From NCBI GenBank assembly GCA_007127425.1, contig SKZJ01000186.1, positions 1 through 25,987 on the forward strand: a stretch of 25,987 nt of DNA, written 5' to 3'. The notes beneath the pieces are model-generated. The model saw only the letters and a program-made list of their open reading frames with translations. It had not been told where the DNA came from and did not search any database. Source of the DNA: Wenzhouxiangella sp. Lineage in GTDB: Bacteria; Pseudomonadota; Gammaproteobacteria; Xanthomonadales; Wenzhouxiangellaceae. Each line of letters begins with the position of its first letter. Positions within the stretch are counted from its first letter, which is position 1. Both the position numbers and the translations under genes were made by a program. Positions 5,228-19,230 of this stretch are shown here, piece by piece.

Positions 5228-5255
5228 CTAAAGATTCTCGGTCAAATAATTCGGT

Positions 5256-5396
5256 CCACAGATGAACACAGATAGACACAGATCGAAACCATTTCCGTCC
5301 ACCTGCTGCCTTGAGCCACTCTCAACGCGAATGGTCAACTGCAACGTTCAATATCAAAAACCATTTTGCTGTGTATATCTCTGTGTTCATCTGTGG
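5256..5396. repeat. Inverted repeat pair in the prfB-lysS spacer
   Basis: The arm at 5256-5283 begins CCACAGATGAACACAGAT and continues with a second ACACAGAT unit. The arm at 5369-5396 is its inverse: its reverse complement also begins CCACAGATGAACACAGA, so 17 bp match perfectly. Each arm is itself built of a short CACAGAT-like unit. The 85-bp centre has no ORF. Sequences of the ATCTGTGTTCATCTGTGG type recur in intergenic regions of many bacterial genomes, so this is probably a dispersed palindromic repeat rather than a gene-specific regulator. In the prfB-lysS transcript the arms could pair as a long hairpin. Confidence 0.75.
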
Positions 5397-5407
5397 ATGT
5401 GGACACT

Positions 5408-9784: not shown

Positions 9785-10238
9785 AGGTCCGGCGACCGTT
9801 GGGTGCCTTGAAGTCGACCACGTCGCCTTCTTCCTTGCCGATCAGGGCACGGGCCAGCGGTGCGCTGATGGCGAGTCGGTGCTGTCCGGCATCGGCCTCC
9901 AGGTCACCGACGATTTGCCAGGTCACTTCTTCGGCGTCATCGACCTCCTCGAGCAGCGTCACCGTCGCCCCGAAAACGACCTTGCTGCCCGGATTGAGAG
10001 AGGCCACATCAATCACACGGGCATGGCTCAGCCCCGCTTCCAGTTCCTGGATGCGCCCTTCGATAAAGCCCTGTTGCTCGCGTGCGGCATGGTACTCGGC
10101 ATTCTCCTTGAGATCGCCGTGCGCCCGCGCTTCGGCAATCGCCTCGATCACGGCTGGCCGCTCCTGCTTCTTGAGCCGATGGAGCTCCTCGCGCAAGCGC
10201 TCGGCGCCCGTGCGGGTCAGCGGTGTCTGGGTACTCAT
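9753..10238 (-). CDS. greA: Transcription elongation factor GreA
   Basis: GreA rescues backtracked RNA polymerase by stimulating transcript cleavage. The 161-residue protein has the N-terminal coiled coil with the tip acidic residues ([20 protein letters not shown], about 38-57) and the C-terminal FKBP-like domain ending [15 protein letters not shown] chose the ATG at 10238 ([15 protein letters not shown]), which follows AAGGAGA with good spacing. An upstream start 19 codons earlier would add a non-homologous tail lying inside carB. The chosen start overlaps the carB stop as ATGA, the usual sign of translational coupling. Confidence 0.95.
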
Positions 10239-13200
10239 CCTGTCTCCTTGGTACTGTGCAGTTCCTCGAGGCTGCGTACGCCCCGCTCGTGCCAATGATC
10301 CAGCGCTCTCAACGTGGCGCGCGCGCCTGCAATAGTGGTCGAGTAGTTGACCTTGCGTTGCAATGCCTCGCGCCGAATCGAGAATGAATCGGCAATCGCC
10401 TGGCGCCCCTCGGTGGTATTGACAATATAGTCGATCTCGTCGTTCTTGATCAGGTCGACGATATGGGGCCGGCCCTGGATCACCTTGTTGACGTAATCAC
10501 AGTCGATGTCGTTTTCAACCAGGAATTTCCAGGTGCCCTGGGTAGCGACCAGCGAAAAACCGCGCTCGATGAGTTCCTGCGCCACCGGCAGCAATCGGTC
10601 CTTGTCGGCGTCACGCACACTCAGGAAGACGCGACCCGAATGCTTGATGTTGATGTTCACGCCCTGCTGGGCGCGGGCGACGGCCGAGCCGAAGGAACGA
10701 CCCACGCCCATGGCTTCACCGGTCGAGCGCATTTCCGGCCCGAGGATCGGATCGACGCCGGGAAACTTGATGAACGGATAGACCGGCTCCTTGATGGAAT
10801 AGAAAGGAGATGAGAGATCTTCCGTAAGATTTTGTTCTTTAAGGCTATTATCAACCATGCATCGGGCTGCGACCTGGGCCAGCGGCACACCGGTCGCCTT
10901 GGAGACGAAGGGCACGGTGCGCGATGCACGCGGGTTGACCTCGAGCACGTAAATCTCGCCCTCGCGCACCGCGAACTGCACGTTCATCAGACCGATCACG
11001 TTCAGGCCCAGCGCCATTTGCCTGGTCTGGCGCTTGATTTCCTCGATGCAGTCGTCGTCCAGGGAAAACGGCGGCAGACTGCAGGACGAGTCGCCCGAAT
11101 GCACGCCGGCTTCCTCGATATGCTCCATAACACCGCCGATGATGACGTTCTCTCCATCGCAGACGGCATCGACATCGACCTCGATGGCGTGGTCCAGGAA
11201 GTGGTCCAGCAGCACCGGAGAATCATTGGAGACCTTGACCGCCTCGCGCATATAGCGGTTGAGCTCGTCCTCGCCGTAGACAATGTCCATGGCGCGTCCG
11301 CCCAGAACGTAGGAGGGACGAACCACCAGTGGGTAGCCGATCTCGCGCGCCAGCACCAACGCCTCGTCGGGATCGCGCGCCGTGCGATTGGGGGCCTGCT
11401 TCAATCCCAGCTCGTTGAGCAGGCGCTGGAATCGTTCGCGGTCCTCGGCCAGGTCGATGCAATCCGGCGTGGTGCCGATGATCGGAGCACCGGCCGCCTC
11501 CAGCTCCCGCGCCAGTTTCAGCGGCGTCTGGCCGCCGAACTGAATGATGATGCCCTCGGGCTTCTCGACGTCGACGATCGCCAGCACGTTCTCAAGTGTC
11601 AGCGGTTCGAAATAGAGACGATCGGACGTATCGTAGTCGGTTGAAACCGTTTCCGGATTGCAGTTGACCATGATGGTCTCGAAACCGAGATCACGCATGG
11701 CCATGGCCGCGTGCACGCAGCAGTAGTCGAATTCAATCCCCTGCCCGATCCGGTTCGGCCCGCCGCCGAGCACCATGATCTTGCGCCTGCTCGTCGCCGC
11801 CGCCTCGCACTGCTCGCCCCAGGTCGAATACATGTAGGCGGTGCTGGTGGCAAACTCTGCAGCACAGGTGTCCACGCGCCGGTACGCCGGACGAATATCG
11901 TGGCTGGCGCGCAGCTTGCGAATGGACTTTTCGCTGACCCCGGCCAGCTCGGCGATACGTGCGTCGGCAAACCCATAGCGCTTGAGTTCCAGCAAACGAT
12001 CACGATTCAAGGCCGCAATTCCACCTTCGTGGATGGCCTGCTCGACCTCGACCAGTTCCTGGACCTGGTCGAGGAACCAGGGATCGATCTGCGACAGGCG
12101 GTGAACCTCCTCGAACTCCATTCCGCGCCGGAAGGCCTCCGCCACGTAGAGCATGCGATCGGCACCGGCTTCGCGCACTTCGCGCCGAATCAGGGTCGGT
12201 TCATCGTCATCGCCCTCGAACTCGACAGGATCGAGGCCGGTCAGTCCGGTTTCCAGACTCCTGAGCGCCTTCTGCAGGGATTCCTGGAAGGTCCGCCCGA
12301 AGGCCATGGCCTCACCGACCGATTTCATCTGTGTGGTCAGGCGATCATTGGCAGCCGGGAACTTCTCGAAGGCAAAACGCGGGATCTTGGTGACCACGTA
12401 GTCGATGGTCGGCTCGAACGACGCCGGCGTGGCGCCTCCCGTAATCTCGTTGTCCAGTTCGTCGAGGGTATAACCCACCGCCAGCTTGGCCGCCACCTTG
12501 GCGATCGGGAATCCGGTGGCCTTGGAAGCCAGCGCCGAAGAGCGTGACACGCGCGGATTCATCTCGATCACCACCACCCGGCCGTCTTCCGGGTTGATGG
12601 CAAACTGCACGTTGGAACCGCCGGTATCGACACCGATCTTGCGCAGCACGGCGATGGACGCGTCGCGCAGCACCTGGTATTCCTTGTCGGTCAGTGTCTG
12701 TGCCGGTGCGACAGTGACCGAATCGCCGGTATGTACGCCCATGGGATCGAAGTTTTCGATCGAGCAGATGATGATGCAGTTGTCGGCCTTGTCGCGCACG
12801 ACCTCAAGCTCGAATTCCTTCCAGCCCAGCAGCGATTCGTCGAGCAGCACCTCGTTGGTCGGCGACAGATCGAGCCCATGCTCGACGATCTCGACGAATT
12901 CCTCGCGGTTGTAGGCGATGCCGCCACCCGAGCCGCCCAGCGTGAACGAGGGCCGGATGATGACGGGAAAACCGATGCGCTTCTGGATCTCGACGGCTTG
13001 CTCGAGCGAGCGCGCCACTTCCGCCTCGGGCGACTCCAGCCCGATATCGCGCATCGCATCGCGAAACTCCTCGCGATCTTCGGCCATGTCGATGGCTTTT
13101 TTGGACGCACCGATCATCTCCACACCGAACTCCGCCAGCACGCCTTCGCGATCGAGGTCGAGGGCGCAGTTCAATGCGGTCTGCCCGCCCATGGTCGGCA

Positions 13201-13459
13201 GCAGCGCGTCGGGGCGCTCTTTCTCGATGATGTCGCGCACCACGTCCCAGCGGATCGGCTCGATGTAGACCACATCGGCAATGTCCGGATCGGTCATGAT
13301 GGTGGCCGGGTTGGAGTTGACCAGGATGACCTTGTAGCCCTCTTCCCTGAGCGCCTTGACCGCCTGTACGCCGGAATAGTCGAACTCGCACGCCTGCCCG
13401 ATGACGATGGGCCCGGCGCCGATGATGAGGATGGATTGGATGTCGTTGCGTTTAGGCAT
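10235..13459 (-). CDS. carB: Carbamoyl-phosphate synthase large subunit
   Basis: At 1074 residues it matches E. coli CarB. It has two homologous ATP-grasp halves (first near [21 protein letters not shown], second near [20 protein letters not shown]) and a C-terminal MGS-like allosteric domain ([30 protein letters not shown]). With CarA it makes carbamoyl phosphate for arginine and pyrimidines. The ATG follows the stop of the four-helix-bundle gene by 4 nt, and no Shine-Dalgarno is visible (upstream is heptamer repeat), so it probably depends on re-initiation. Codons near residues 866-884 ([14 protein letters not shown]) lie in a local AT-rich patch (10801-10860, 22 of 60 G/C). The stop overlaps greA. 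Confidence 0.97.
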
Positions 13460-13463
13460 GGCG

Positions 13464-13871
13464 TTATCGGGACTCGGGATTCGGGACTCGGGACTCGGAA
13501 TGGGTGCGCCGTGACAGCGCCTGGTTCAGTTTCTGCAACATTTGACCTACTCGATCACAAAGCGACAAGGCGCTCTCGGCTCGATCAGCCGAACCCAGTC
13601 CAAGATCCTGCGCCAGAATCAATTGCGTCTGGAGTTCGGCGACCGAACCGAGCGCGATGGACACAAACCTCTGATATTCACGGTTACCACCTCGGCCATT
13701 CCCTTCCGCAATATTCGAAGGAATCGAAACCGCACTGCGCTGCAGCTGCGAACTCAAACCGTATTTTTCCGAGGCAGGAAAGTCAGCCGTCATGCCATAC
13801 ACTTCCCTGGCAAGCCGCATGGCGAGTTTCCAGACTTCAAGCTCCCGAAAGTGACTCGGCCCCGCACTCAT
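13464..13871 (-). CDS. Four-helix-bundle protein (23S rRNA intervening-sequence/S23 family)
   Basis: This 135-residue protein is a clear member of the family encoded inside intervening sequences of some bacterial 23S rRNAs, which also includes the Avd accessory protein of diversity-generating retroelements. Diagnostic pieces are [21 protein letters not shown] (residues 8-28), [24 protein letters not shown] and [20 protein letters not shown]. Function is unknown; members form basic multimers. Here it is not in rRNA but sits between carA and carB, overlapping the carA stop as ATGA and ending 4 nt before carB. Its last dozen residues ([12 protein letters not shown]) are translated from a GGGACTC-type heptamer array. 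An inverted array lies just upstream of its start. It looks like an inserted unit captured by the operon. Confidence 0.93.
13468..13502. repeat. Heptamer array, carB-proximal arm of inverted pair
   Basis: Five consecutive 7-mers on the plus strand read CGGGACT, CGGGATT, CGGGACT, CGGGACT and CGGAATG. The array covers the C-terminal codons of the four-helix-bundle gene and ends just before the carB start. It is the inverse of the array at 13880-13914. Confidence 0.9.
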
Positions 13872-15058
13872 GAACTCTTCCCGAGTCCCGAGTCCCGAGT
13901 CCCGCGTCCCGATCCCAGAGCTTCTACCGACGACTCACCATCCATCAACTTGACGAAACGTGCGAACAAACCCCGCAGGTCGTGGGGGCCGGGGCTGGCT
14001 TCGGGGTGGCCCTGGAAGCCCATGGCCGGCTTGCCTTGGATACGGACGCCCTGCAGGGATCCATCGAACAGGGAACGGTGGGTCGGGATCACTTCATCGG
14101 GCAGCGAATCCTCGTCGACCGCGAAGCCGTGATTCTGGCTGGTAATCATGACCTGACCCGTGGCCAGATCCTTGACCGGGTGGTTGGCGCCGTGGTGGCC
14201 AAATTTCATCTTGACCGTGCGTGCGCCGGCGGCCAGCCCCAGCAACTGGTGGCCCAGGCAGATACCGAAGGTCGGCACGTTCTTGTCCAGCAGCCCCCGG
14301 ATGGCCTCGATCGCGTAGCCGCAAGGCTCGGGATCGCCCGGTCCGTTGGACAGCATCACGCCATCGGGCTTAAGGGCCAGAACTTCGGCCAGCGGGGTTT
14401 TCGCGGGCACGACGGTCACGCGGCAGCCGGCATCGACCAGCAGGCGCAGGATGTTGGTCTTTACGCCGTAGTCGTAGCAGACAACGTGGTGACGAGGGTT
14501 GTCGGCCCCGAAAGCACCTGTCGACAGATCGAACGTCCCCTCAGTCCACTCGTGGCTGCTTTCGGTGGTAACGGTACAGGCCAGGTCACGTCCACTCATC
14601 GGCTCGCATTCGCGGGCCCGCCGCACGGCCTCGTCCGGATCGACTTCAGCGCCGGCCATCAGGCAGCCGTTCTGGGCGCCCTTCTCGCGCAGCAGGACGG
14701 TGAGTGCCCGCGTGTCGATACCGGCGATGGCCACCCGCCCCTGTTCTGCCAGCCACTCTCCCAGCGAGTTCGTGGCTCTCCATGAGCTGTGGCGTCGAGG
14801 ATAATGGCGGATGATCAGCCCGGCGGCATGAACGCGGGCCGATTCCACATCGACCGGGTTGATGCCGGTATTGCCGACATGGGACGCGGTCAGCGTGACC
14901 AGCTGACCGGCATAGCTGGGATCGGTCAGAATTTCCTGGTATCCGGTCATGGCGGTATTGAATACCACCTCACCCACACTGAAGCCGGGCGCGCCGAACC
15001 CGTATCCGGAAAACGTGCTGCCGTCTTCCAGCGCCAGAATCGCCTGCATTTGGGACAA
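13868..15058 (-). CDS. carA: Carbamoyl-phosphate synthase small (glutaminase) subunit
   Basis: CarA hydrolyses glutamine and channels ammonia to CarB. The N-terminal domain ([40 protein letters not shown]) is followed by a class I glutamine amidotransferase domain with nucleophile Cys in [23 protein letters not shown], and the His/Glu pair in [12 protein letters not shown]. The TTG at 15058 is chosen because GGAGG lies 8 nt upstream; the next ATG (15049, [10 protein letters not shown]) would be 17 nt from it and a GTG at 15064 too close. The last 15 or so residues (after [13 protein letters not shown]) are encoded by the heptamer repeat and are not typical of CarA. The stop overlaps the next gene as ATGA. 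Confidence 0.95.
13880..13914. repeat. Heptamer array, carA-proximal arm of inverted pair
   Basis: Five consecutive 7-mers on the plus strand read CCCGAGT three times, then CCCGCGT and CCCGATC. They encode the final CarA residues on the minus strand ([15 protein letters not shown] region). They are inverse-complementary to 13468-13502: the two arms can pair over about 32 nt with two or three mismatches, enclosing about 377 nt that hold most of the four-helix-bundle gene. Confidence 0.9.
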
Positions 15059-15076
15059 GTTCACTTCCTCCGGGTA

Positions 15077-15129
15077 CAAAAAGCGGGCCTAACCGCATGT
15101 CGGCCTGGCCCGCCTGTCGAGCGCCGGGC
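15077..15129 (-). promoter_or_regulatory. Putative transcription attenuator in the carA leader
   Basis: On the minus strand, GCGGGCC (15113-15107) and GGCCCGC (15089-15083) form a 7-bp perfect stem, with an extra CCG/CGG pairing in the loop. Five U residues (15082-15078) follow, as in an intrinsic terminator, only a few bases before the carA Shine-Dalgarno. An upstream GCCCG (15129-15125) can pair with CGGGC of the terminator arm, offering a mutually exclusive antiterminator. Pyrimidine- or arginine-responsive control would be sensible for carAB but is inference. Confidence 0.55.
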
Positions 15130-15159: not shown

Positions 15160-15240
15160 AACCATGGCAAGAGGCTTTGGGGACATCCCGGCGCCCTGTC
15201 GCGGCGCCCTAAGCCCGGCAGCTGATGTCCGGGAGCAGCG

Positions 15241-15278
15241 AAGTCTGAAGCTGACCGGTCTTACCGGTCTTCAGACTT
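15241..15278 (-). terminator. Hairpin at the end of the ppsR-DUF1249 operon
   Basis: AAGTCTGAAG (15241-15250) and CTTCAGACTT (15269-15278) form a perfect 10-bp stem, with a nested ACCGGT-CTT-ACCGGT hairpin inside. The stop codon of the DUF1249 gene (15273-15271) lies within the stem. There is no U-tract, so it may be a Rho-aided end, an mRNA-stabilising structure or a repeat remnant; the AAGTCTGAAG unit differs by one base from AAGTGTGAAG of the ppsA-orn element. Confidence 0.5.
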
Positions 15279-15786
15279 CCGGAGCGGTGGCGATAGGGCC
15301 GAAGGTCGCGCCGGTTTCAGCCGGACGCATGGTCTCGCTGCCGTGACCCTGTGCAATCAGGTAGTCCAGCCACTTGAGTAGCGCCCGGTTGAGGCGCCAG
15401 CTCCTGACCACCAGGCCGCTGACCGACAGATCGGGGCCGGCAAAGCGACGGATGCCCTGTTCCGGGCTGAAGGCTGTCGCCTCGGCCATCGCCGCATCGT
15501 GGTAGATACGAACATGAGCATTGGGGTTGTGCTGGCGCTCGGGTCCGATGACATGGGACAGGCGCACGAAAGTGGTATAGGCGTGACGCTCGATCACTTC
15601 CAGGTAGAGTTCAGGGCCGTTGCCGGCCCGGGAATAAAGCACGTCGCTCACTGCCAGGCCGTCGGGCAGCATCACGCTCAACGCCCGGTACAGGGCGCTG
15701 TGCAGTTCCGGGAGCCGTCGCGCCAGGATGCGGCTGGACGGCTGTAGTTGGCGGGTCGCGGTCAGCATGGCGGCAGAGAATAGCAT
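15271..15786 (-). CDS. DUF1249 / YqiB-like protein
   Basis: The 171-residue product matches the YqiB (DUF1249) family. The hallmark segments are AYTTFVRLSHVIG, AHVRIYHDAAMAEATAF and NRALLKWLDYLIAQGHGSE, corresponding to YTTLV, VRLYHDAMVAEV and LADWLRYCLAHG in E. coli YqiB. Function is unknown; in E. coli the gene lies beside nudF and cpdA. The frame stays open upstream through ppsR, but that extension (an Arg/Cys-rich shadow of ppsR) is not real. ATG 15786 is a working start. ATG 15768 and GTG 15819, which lies right at the ppsR stop, are alternatives, and none has a clear ribosome binding site. It follows ppsR closely and is probably co-transcribed. Confidence 0.75.
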   Translation of the reverse strand: MLFSAAMLTATRQLQPSSRILARRLPELHSALYRALSVMLPDGLAVSDVLYSRAGNGPELYLEVIERHAYTTFVRLSHVIGPERQHNPNAHVRIYHDAAMAEATAFSPEQGIRRFAGPDLSVSGLVVRSWRLNRALLKWLDYLIAQGHGSETMRPAETGATFGPIATAPEV

Positions 15787-19051: not shown

Positions 19052-19230
19052 TTAAGTGTGAAGTGTGAAGATGGGGAGGAGTTTCAGGTGGCCGGGGTTG
19101 GAGGGTGTTAGGTACTGTCCGTCGGACGTAGCGATCATAGAAACCCCGGCGACAAACTACGCCCCAAAATCAACCGCAAGCCGTTGTTTTGCTTCACACT
19201 TCACACCTCACACTTAACCCTTCACACTTG
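19052..19230. repeat. Intergenic element with inverted AAGTGTG arrays and nested hairpin
   Basis: The left arm (19052-19070) reads TTAAGTGTGAAGTGTGAAG. The right arm (19192-19230) is an inverted, longer array of CTTCACACTT-type units whose reverse complement contains TTAAGTGTGAGGTGTGAAG. Between them GCCGGGGTT (19091-19099) and AACCCCGGC (19142-19150) form a perfect 9-bp stem that encloses GTCC-GTC-GGAC (19117-19127). The right array supplies the orn stop codon and its last codons (GQV-stop). No ORF is present in the element. Its arrangement of heptamer-like arrays in inverse orientation around a centre parallels the carA-carB insert. Confidence 0.75.

Follow-up and report, generated by a model that had tools for sequence, protein, structure and literature searches.

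The four-helix-bundle (FHB) gene that lies between carA and carB in a Wenzhouxiangella sp. contig, together with the two inverted arrays of a 7-nt unit that enclose it, is best read as a single insertion unit, of which the intervening sequence (IVS) of 23S rRNA would be a special case. The FHB protein would be a putative binder of its own array, and the copy at carAB would have been kept by selection and exchanged horizontally; we rate this reading, taken as a whole, at somewhat better than even. The same design, with a 7-mer that mostly differs from place to place, surrounds many FHB genes throughout the bacteria and suggests a kind of insertion element that is widespread but has drawn little notice. 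A repeat bracket around FHB genes is the rule and not an oddity.

The window, that is the whole stretch of DNA analysed (25,987 nt), carries the carA, FHB and carB ORFs on the minus strand with FHB in the middle; its features are collected in Table 1. The names carA, carB, ppsA, orn, lysS and prfB are assumed throughout, from the initial annotation or from a reading of the sequences. In profile searches the FHB protein matched PF05635 (E 6.7e-38, 129.6 bits for a cut-off of 33.8) and TIGR02436 (118 bits for a cut-off of 24), and scored below the cut-off of the NCBIfam Avd equivalog model (20.4 bits vs 80). The family assignment of the initial annotation is thus retained for FHB and dropped for Avd, and kinship to the DGR accessory protein Avd is remote. 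Profile family searches of the window FHB gave no match to a transposase family. The placement of the gene between carA and carB, inside inverted GGGACTC arrays, agrees with what had been described from the sequence, and so does the pairing of its arms: positions 13466-13505 and 13874-13913 are inverted and 88% complementary across 40 nt, with 368 nt between them, and the predicted fold is stable. The FHB start codon overlaps the carA stop as ATGA. The 3' array is read through by the FHB frame, and the 5' array, which precedes the carA stop, is part of the carA frame. A separate hairpin with 11-nt arms (GAAGTCTGAAG / CTTCAGACTTC) was noted upstream of carA, at 15240-15279.

Table 1. Features of the window, with positions counted from its first letter.
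Feature	Position	Strand	Remarks
FHB gene (PF05635 / TIGR02436), 135 aa	13464..13871	-	Profile matches and ORF reading
carA ORF	13868..15079	-	Name presumed from the initial annotation and the sequence; 3' end reads through the 5' array
carB ORF	10235..13459	-	Name presumed from the initial annotation and the sequence; start 4 nt after the FHB stop
5' arm (mRNA sense), CGGGACT/GGGACTC units	13879..13916	-	Within the extended carA reading frame; period 7, 5.6 copies (Tandem Repeats Finder)
3' arm (mRNA sense), complementary array, GAGTCCC units	13467..13498	-	Within the FHB reading frame; period 7, 4.6 copies (Tandem Repeats Finder)
Gene-less inverted element, CACAGATGAA-type / GTCCACAGATGAACACAGAT arms	5251..5402		Arm type that brackets GxxExxY genes
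Gene-less element, inverted AAGTGTG/CTTCACA arrays	19053..19229		Between two convergent genes

FHB loci came from three surveys, of the genus, the class and the order, and from a scan of the collection in which the best 80 of 286 relatives were kept, so that this last set leans to close relatives. A locus was considered strictly bracketed when arrays of the same period stood on both sides of the gene and matched inverted. Further FHB units with inverted 7-mer arrays, for which the initial annotation had proposed a search, do exist: strict 7-mer brackets were found at 72 of 174 loci from the genus, the class and the best 80 of 286 collection relatives. By set, these were 12/28 in the genus, 14/66 in the class and, among the best 80 of 286 relatives, 26/31 at carAB and 20/49 elsewhere; the order survey gave 21/80 under the same rule. 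In the 174 loci the unit length is 7: strict brackets were seen twice at period 8 and 60 times at the harmonic period 14, and at none of the remaining periods tested from 4 to 15. Strict 7-mer brackets were absent from 3,480 shuffled flank pairs and from 550 control ORFs of the same loci; on the latter count, chance or base composition was rejected as the source of the brackets.

Using a relaxed inverted-repeat criterion, 207 of 241 FHB loci (141/164 and 66/77) exceeded the 99th percentile of shuffled flanks, and 34 showed no bracket above this threshold; under the stricter cut of the shuffle maximum the two sets gave 119/164 and 61/77. These counts use the shuffle null (99th percentile 23 and maximum 31 in the 164-locus set), which is exceeded by a cross-locus null (48 and 64) because many loci share 7-mers. 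Slight overlaps exist between the locus sets (L064/L218 and L080/L082 are duplicates, and L273 shares its junction with L079). Many loci without a strict match still show short or degenerate arms by eye. Judging from record titles, the bracketed loci span several phyla, with Selenomonadaceae, Treponema, Chloroflexi, Planctomycetota and Omnitrophota among them. One group of FHB genes (L160, L163 and L165-L168), with short degenerate 7-mer arms by eye, adjoins a tRNA gene and apparently lies downstream of a ribosomal protein gene, which we take to be rpsI from its C-terminal sequence.

The design of the arms was compared in 57 loci, left after thinning, that carry an array on each side. The arms matched inverted at 50 of them and direct at one; when arms were swapped between loci, a match was obtained in 3.7% on average and 12.3% at most. 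The left arm had more G than C at 53/57 loci, an inward G-rich polarity, and arm length was most often 4-5 units. As many as 43 distinct 7-mers occurred, the two arms of one locus usually sharing theirs. Over 46 loci, 7-mer distance tracked FHB distance (Mantel r 0.32, reached in 0 of 5,000 permutations), a correlation that is equally expected from co-inheritance. The protein itself is under strong purifying selection: the nine pairs that were informative, of which four come from carAB sites, gave dN/dS of 0.06-0.21; two of the 11 pairs gave no value (dS zero), and some dS values were near saturation. Identical FHB domains were dropped from the 7-mer distance, FHB tree and dN/dS sets.

The initial annotation had regarded the unit as borne by operon mRNA. 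On a full RNA-level account, the arms would pair in the carAB transcript, RNase III would cut the stem and the FHB segment would be removed, separating the carA and carB messages as in 23S rRNA. The arms do pair with each other in the predicted RNA fold (z-score -6.36, none of 100 shuffles as stable; arm-arm duplex predicted at -73.7 kcal/mol), and the prevalence of inverted arm matches among the thinned loci fits a stem. The orientation of the genes points both ways, FHB being co-directional with both neighbours at 74 of 150 scored loci and antisense to both at 20, with mixed-orientation neighbours at the other 56. Cleavage by RNase III has been described in vitro for the Coxiella IVS (PMC4990558). 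At carAB, however, both arms of the window unit lie within reading frames, as they do in most of 12 carAB junctions inspected, and since the 5' arm stands upstream of the carA stop, a cut there would give a nonstop carA mRNA. Moreover, array pairs without a gene are found between convergent genes, and the unit is not tied to operon mRNAs. We regard the RNA-level account as unlikely; separation of carA from carB by RNase III appears disfavoured by the anatomy of carAB, and at other loci processing of this kind may still occur.

The carA-carB junction looks like a hotspot. Thirty CarA loci including the window were compared, 27 of which show both genes. Among the 26 junctions outside the window, ten are tight (31-61 nt in the extracted segment) and five hold a GxxExxY gene between inverted repeats (L116, L121, L123, L124 and L126). 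The others comprise two short 7-mer tracts and three other inverted repeats (by eye), two short unassigned spacers, and four with other small ORFs or spacers; the junctions judged by eye are L114, L115, L128, L129 and L136. The empty sites sought in related genomes were found: the window unit is at none of the same-genus junctions in 20 genomes with both genes in view. Several of these carry other repeat-bracketed inserts instead, and in one more genome of the genus (G013) a different FHB (L218) stands beside carB.

The GxxExxY genes (TIGR04256) have inverted arms of their own, made of CGCAGATGAA/ACGCAAAG/CACAGAG-type motifs, both at carA-carB junctions and at the 30 loci fetched (L369-L398). 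Their brackets exceed all 216 shuffles at 26 of the 27 loci scored from these 30. The motifs are spaced by about 8-10 nt by eye, with a strict period in five loci. GxxExxY inserts would be a parallel class of repeat-bracketed small-gene inserts with differently spaced arms. The gene-less element at 5251-5402 of the window, flanked by ORFs that we take to be lysS and prfB, closely resembles, in its arms, the GxxExxY locus L372 of G003.

Could the FHB gene be an ordinary, vertically inherited protein gene of the carAB operon, surrounded by arrays that are just slippage-prone DNA? Its purifying selection would fit, as would the FHB tree, in which 36 of 40 carAB FHBs form one pure clade (support 0.999). 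The other four fall outside, so the carAB site was used at least twice. The initial annotation had counted a gene fixed at this place across distant lineages without repeats as evidence against its reading. This applies in part: within the order, many genomes have the gene between carA and carB, but the repeats are nearly always present. The exceptions are L349, which retains FHB without arrays and speaks for an ordinary gene, and L337, which is below threshold yet keeps recognisable units in its flanks. Against vertical descent, divergence from the window FHB is 0.30 for a Lysobacter FHB but 0.48-0.55 for those carAB FHBs of its own family that were seen, a disagreement with the carB distances that suggests horizontal exchange. 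FHB co-diverges only weakly with the adjacent genes (carB r 0.33, 45 of 2,000 permutations; carA r 0.21, 128 of 2,000), and purely vertical inheritance is weakened by this together with the Lysobacter proximity. Brackets around FHB genes in many other places and phyla, and their absence from the control ORFs, are also difficult to reconcile with such a gene, and we consider this explanation improbable. The carAB FHB is probably a domesticated, translationally coupled gene held by purifying selection.

Arrays without a gene are dispersed in the window's genome. This assembly (65% complete) has GGGACTC arrays at many places, and several of them form inverted pairs with a spacing of about 100-200 nt. 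Six gene-less copies have in common an interior, about 85 nt long, which is not a piece of the FHB gene; both arms are in view for four of the six. Across the genus, GGGACTC arrays were found in 7 of 30 genomes, with an FHB in 6 of the 7 vs 9 of the 23 others. Among the array-bearing genomes, GGGACTC arms were seen only at the window's own FHB: the FHBs of G014, G314, G315, G024 and G019 are flanked by different arms or by none that are clear, and no FHB was found in G005, which has the arrays. The AAGTGTG unit of the window element at 19053-19229 brackets FHB genes in two same-genus genomes (L235 and L238); in G009 (assembly 80% complete), which has many AAGTGTG arrays, no FHB was found. The convergent genes around that element are presumably ppsA and orn. 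In several same-genus species this intergenic region (19053-19229 in the window, L243-L253) holds different inverted tandem-array elements, of 7-mers, 8-mers and others by eye, as if one such element were swapped there for another.

A similar association was observed for another unit. Of 19 genomes rich in GGGAWTC arrays, 12 had FHBs with GGGATTC-type arms, vs 2 of the 181 others; array-rich was defined as at least 20 hits, a limit chosen after seeing the counts, and the array and FHB surveys were taken as the same 200-genome draw. The two exceptions (G000 and G325) are near-miss 7-mers admitted by the allowed mismatch. Any FHB was present in 15/19 vs 59/181, an association that holds in one family (f2, p 6e-4) and is not significant in another (f12, p 0.24). 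Four GGGAWTC-rich genomes have no FHB (G363, G385, G396 and G401), and two have the carAB FHB only (G037 and G464). Thirteen of the FHBs with GGGATTC arms fall in one group by shared flanking proteins, so the link to the arrays may partly reflect common descent. Arrays without a cognate FHB in several genomes count against the insertion-unit reading.

Presence and absence of the whole unit was followed on plasmids. Thirty plasmid records had an FHB match, and the seven taken for study are all cyanobacterial. The inverted bracket exceeded the maximum of 200 shuffles at all seven loci, only narrowly at L353 and L357, and five had 7-mer arrays on both sides. Related plasmids lacking the unit at the same place were found for four of the five sites queried (cas10/cmr3, cas6/cas4, after a TraM-like gene and after an integrase); for the fifth (L352) the search returned no relative besides itself. 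Arms without the FHB gene are present (by eye) on one plasmid, L363, at the TraM-like site, and at cas6/cas4 a related plasmid bears a different inverted repeat. The whole unit is thus present or absent at orthologous sites, via gain or loss, as expected of a mobile element. A target-site duplication did not appear at any of the plasmid sites; the sequences flanking these units are somewhat different from those of the empty sites. With these plasmids, the empty carA-carB sites and the many bracketed loci, the proposal of an inserted unit, mobile or domesticated, gains support. Two plasmid units lie inside CRISPR operons, between cas6 and cas4 in Anabaena sp. 90 (L354) and between cas10 and cmr3 in Picosynechococcus PCC 7003 (L357).

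A copy inside a 23S rRNA gene was found at one (L171) of the 40 class-survey loci (of 66) that were scanned with Rfam, and on this count rRNA was rejected as the usual home of FHB genes. The FHB frame of L171 is broken, as in a decayed gene, and it is among the 23 loci below the relaxed threshold because stops shorten its FHB domain; its arms, of AGAAGAC type, emerged after the flanks were redrawn by hand, without shuffles. GACAGAT heptamers are described upstream of the ORF in the Coxiella burnetii IVS (PMC4990558). The IVS-like geometry first proposed for the carAB unit is borne out to this extent, and given the 7-mer-type arms of L171 and the Coxiella heptamers, the comparison looks right in kind.

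A conventional non-autonomous transposon, with the arrays as terminal repeats, a putative transposase acting in trans and FHB as cargo, could account for the inverted ends, the dispersed gene-less copies, the arrays in genomes without a cognate FHB and the spots where different inverted-repeat elements replace one another, but we hold it very improbable, since FHB is the shared component, no target-site duplication appears at the plasmid sites, and ends that vary in sequence as widely as the 57 thinned loci do, while unit length stays 7, would hardly be explained by a single transposase.

Under the insertion-unit reading, we propose that the FHB protein binds the array of its own element. The only PDB sequence match to the window FHB (E 9.5e-24), and also to a GGGATTC-bracketed FHB (E 6.1e-43), was XCC0516 (2gsc), deposited as a putative uncharacterized protein with no function assigned there. 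The Xanthomonas S23p structure is reported as a homopentamer (PMC4990558), and, as the arms are mostly 4-5 units long, each FHB subunit might perhaps contact one 7-mer. Binding to the array would allow FHB copies to spread or persist, and likewise gene-less copies that carry the same 7-mer (these spreading in trans), with catalysis supplied by host replication, repair or RNA enzymes. At carA-carB, the unit would by now be an operon gene, translationally coupled and maintained by selection, and would also have been exchanged horizontally. Against this reading, the loci examined showed neither a transposition event nor a target-site duplication or a catalytic domain.

More broadly, and as a tentative proposal that we rate below even, these units may form a class of transposase-less insertion elements in which tandem 7-nt units are the target of a small helical protein that acts as a pentamer, only the period being fixed and each lineage drifting to its own 7-mer. 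Such a class would cover rRNA IVSs and the Xanthomonas G-rich and cyanobacterial heptamers, with GxxExxY inserts as a parallel class. It would give a testable role to the FHB family, a large protein family of unknown function, and would join two literatures found apart, on rRNA intervening sequences and on intergenic heptameric repeats. Pairs of strains that differ in having the unit at one site allow direct tests of its movement and of RNA processing: Picosynechococcus PCC 7003, with a unit of short arms between cas10 and cmr3, vs the empty PCC 7002, and Nostoc C052, with clear 7-mer arms, vs the empty C057.

A general link of FHB genes to inverted 7-mer arrays was not found in the open-access literature, preprints being outside the search. 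In REPIN/RAYT and MITE systems, a gene carries the same ends as short inverted repeats that are scattered over the genome. The units described here differ in that FHB matches no transposase family searched and its ends are 7-mer arrays that vary between loci. With 23S rRNA IVSs, the carAB unit shares an FHB (S23p/IVP) ORF, terminal complementary arms that enclose this ORF and can form a stem (28 bp in Coxiella), and a length of about 430-450 nt (PMC4990558, for the features described there). It differs in its location between two ORFs of a protein-coding operon and not inside a 23S rRNA gene, in arms that are tandem 7-mer arrays, and in the dispersal of gene-less pairs. Repeats of TAACTGA are described by MacGregor 2015 (PMC4679880). 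Rehm et al. 2015 (PMC4692102) describe G-rich heptameric repeats, with the unit GGGAATC in Xanthomonas and the unit GGGGA(C/T)T in Nostoc, in which convergent (inverted) pairs are frequent (70 in Xcc and 75 in Xac), four units are preferred, and association with mobile elements is generally not found; the terms "helix bundle", "hypothetical protein" and "xcc0516" do not occur in the main text of that article. The carAB arrays, as tandem G-rich 7-mers in a convergent pair, belong to the heptameric class described there. They are the same kind of array, with the difference that here the arrays are tied to a protein family, FHB.
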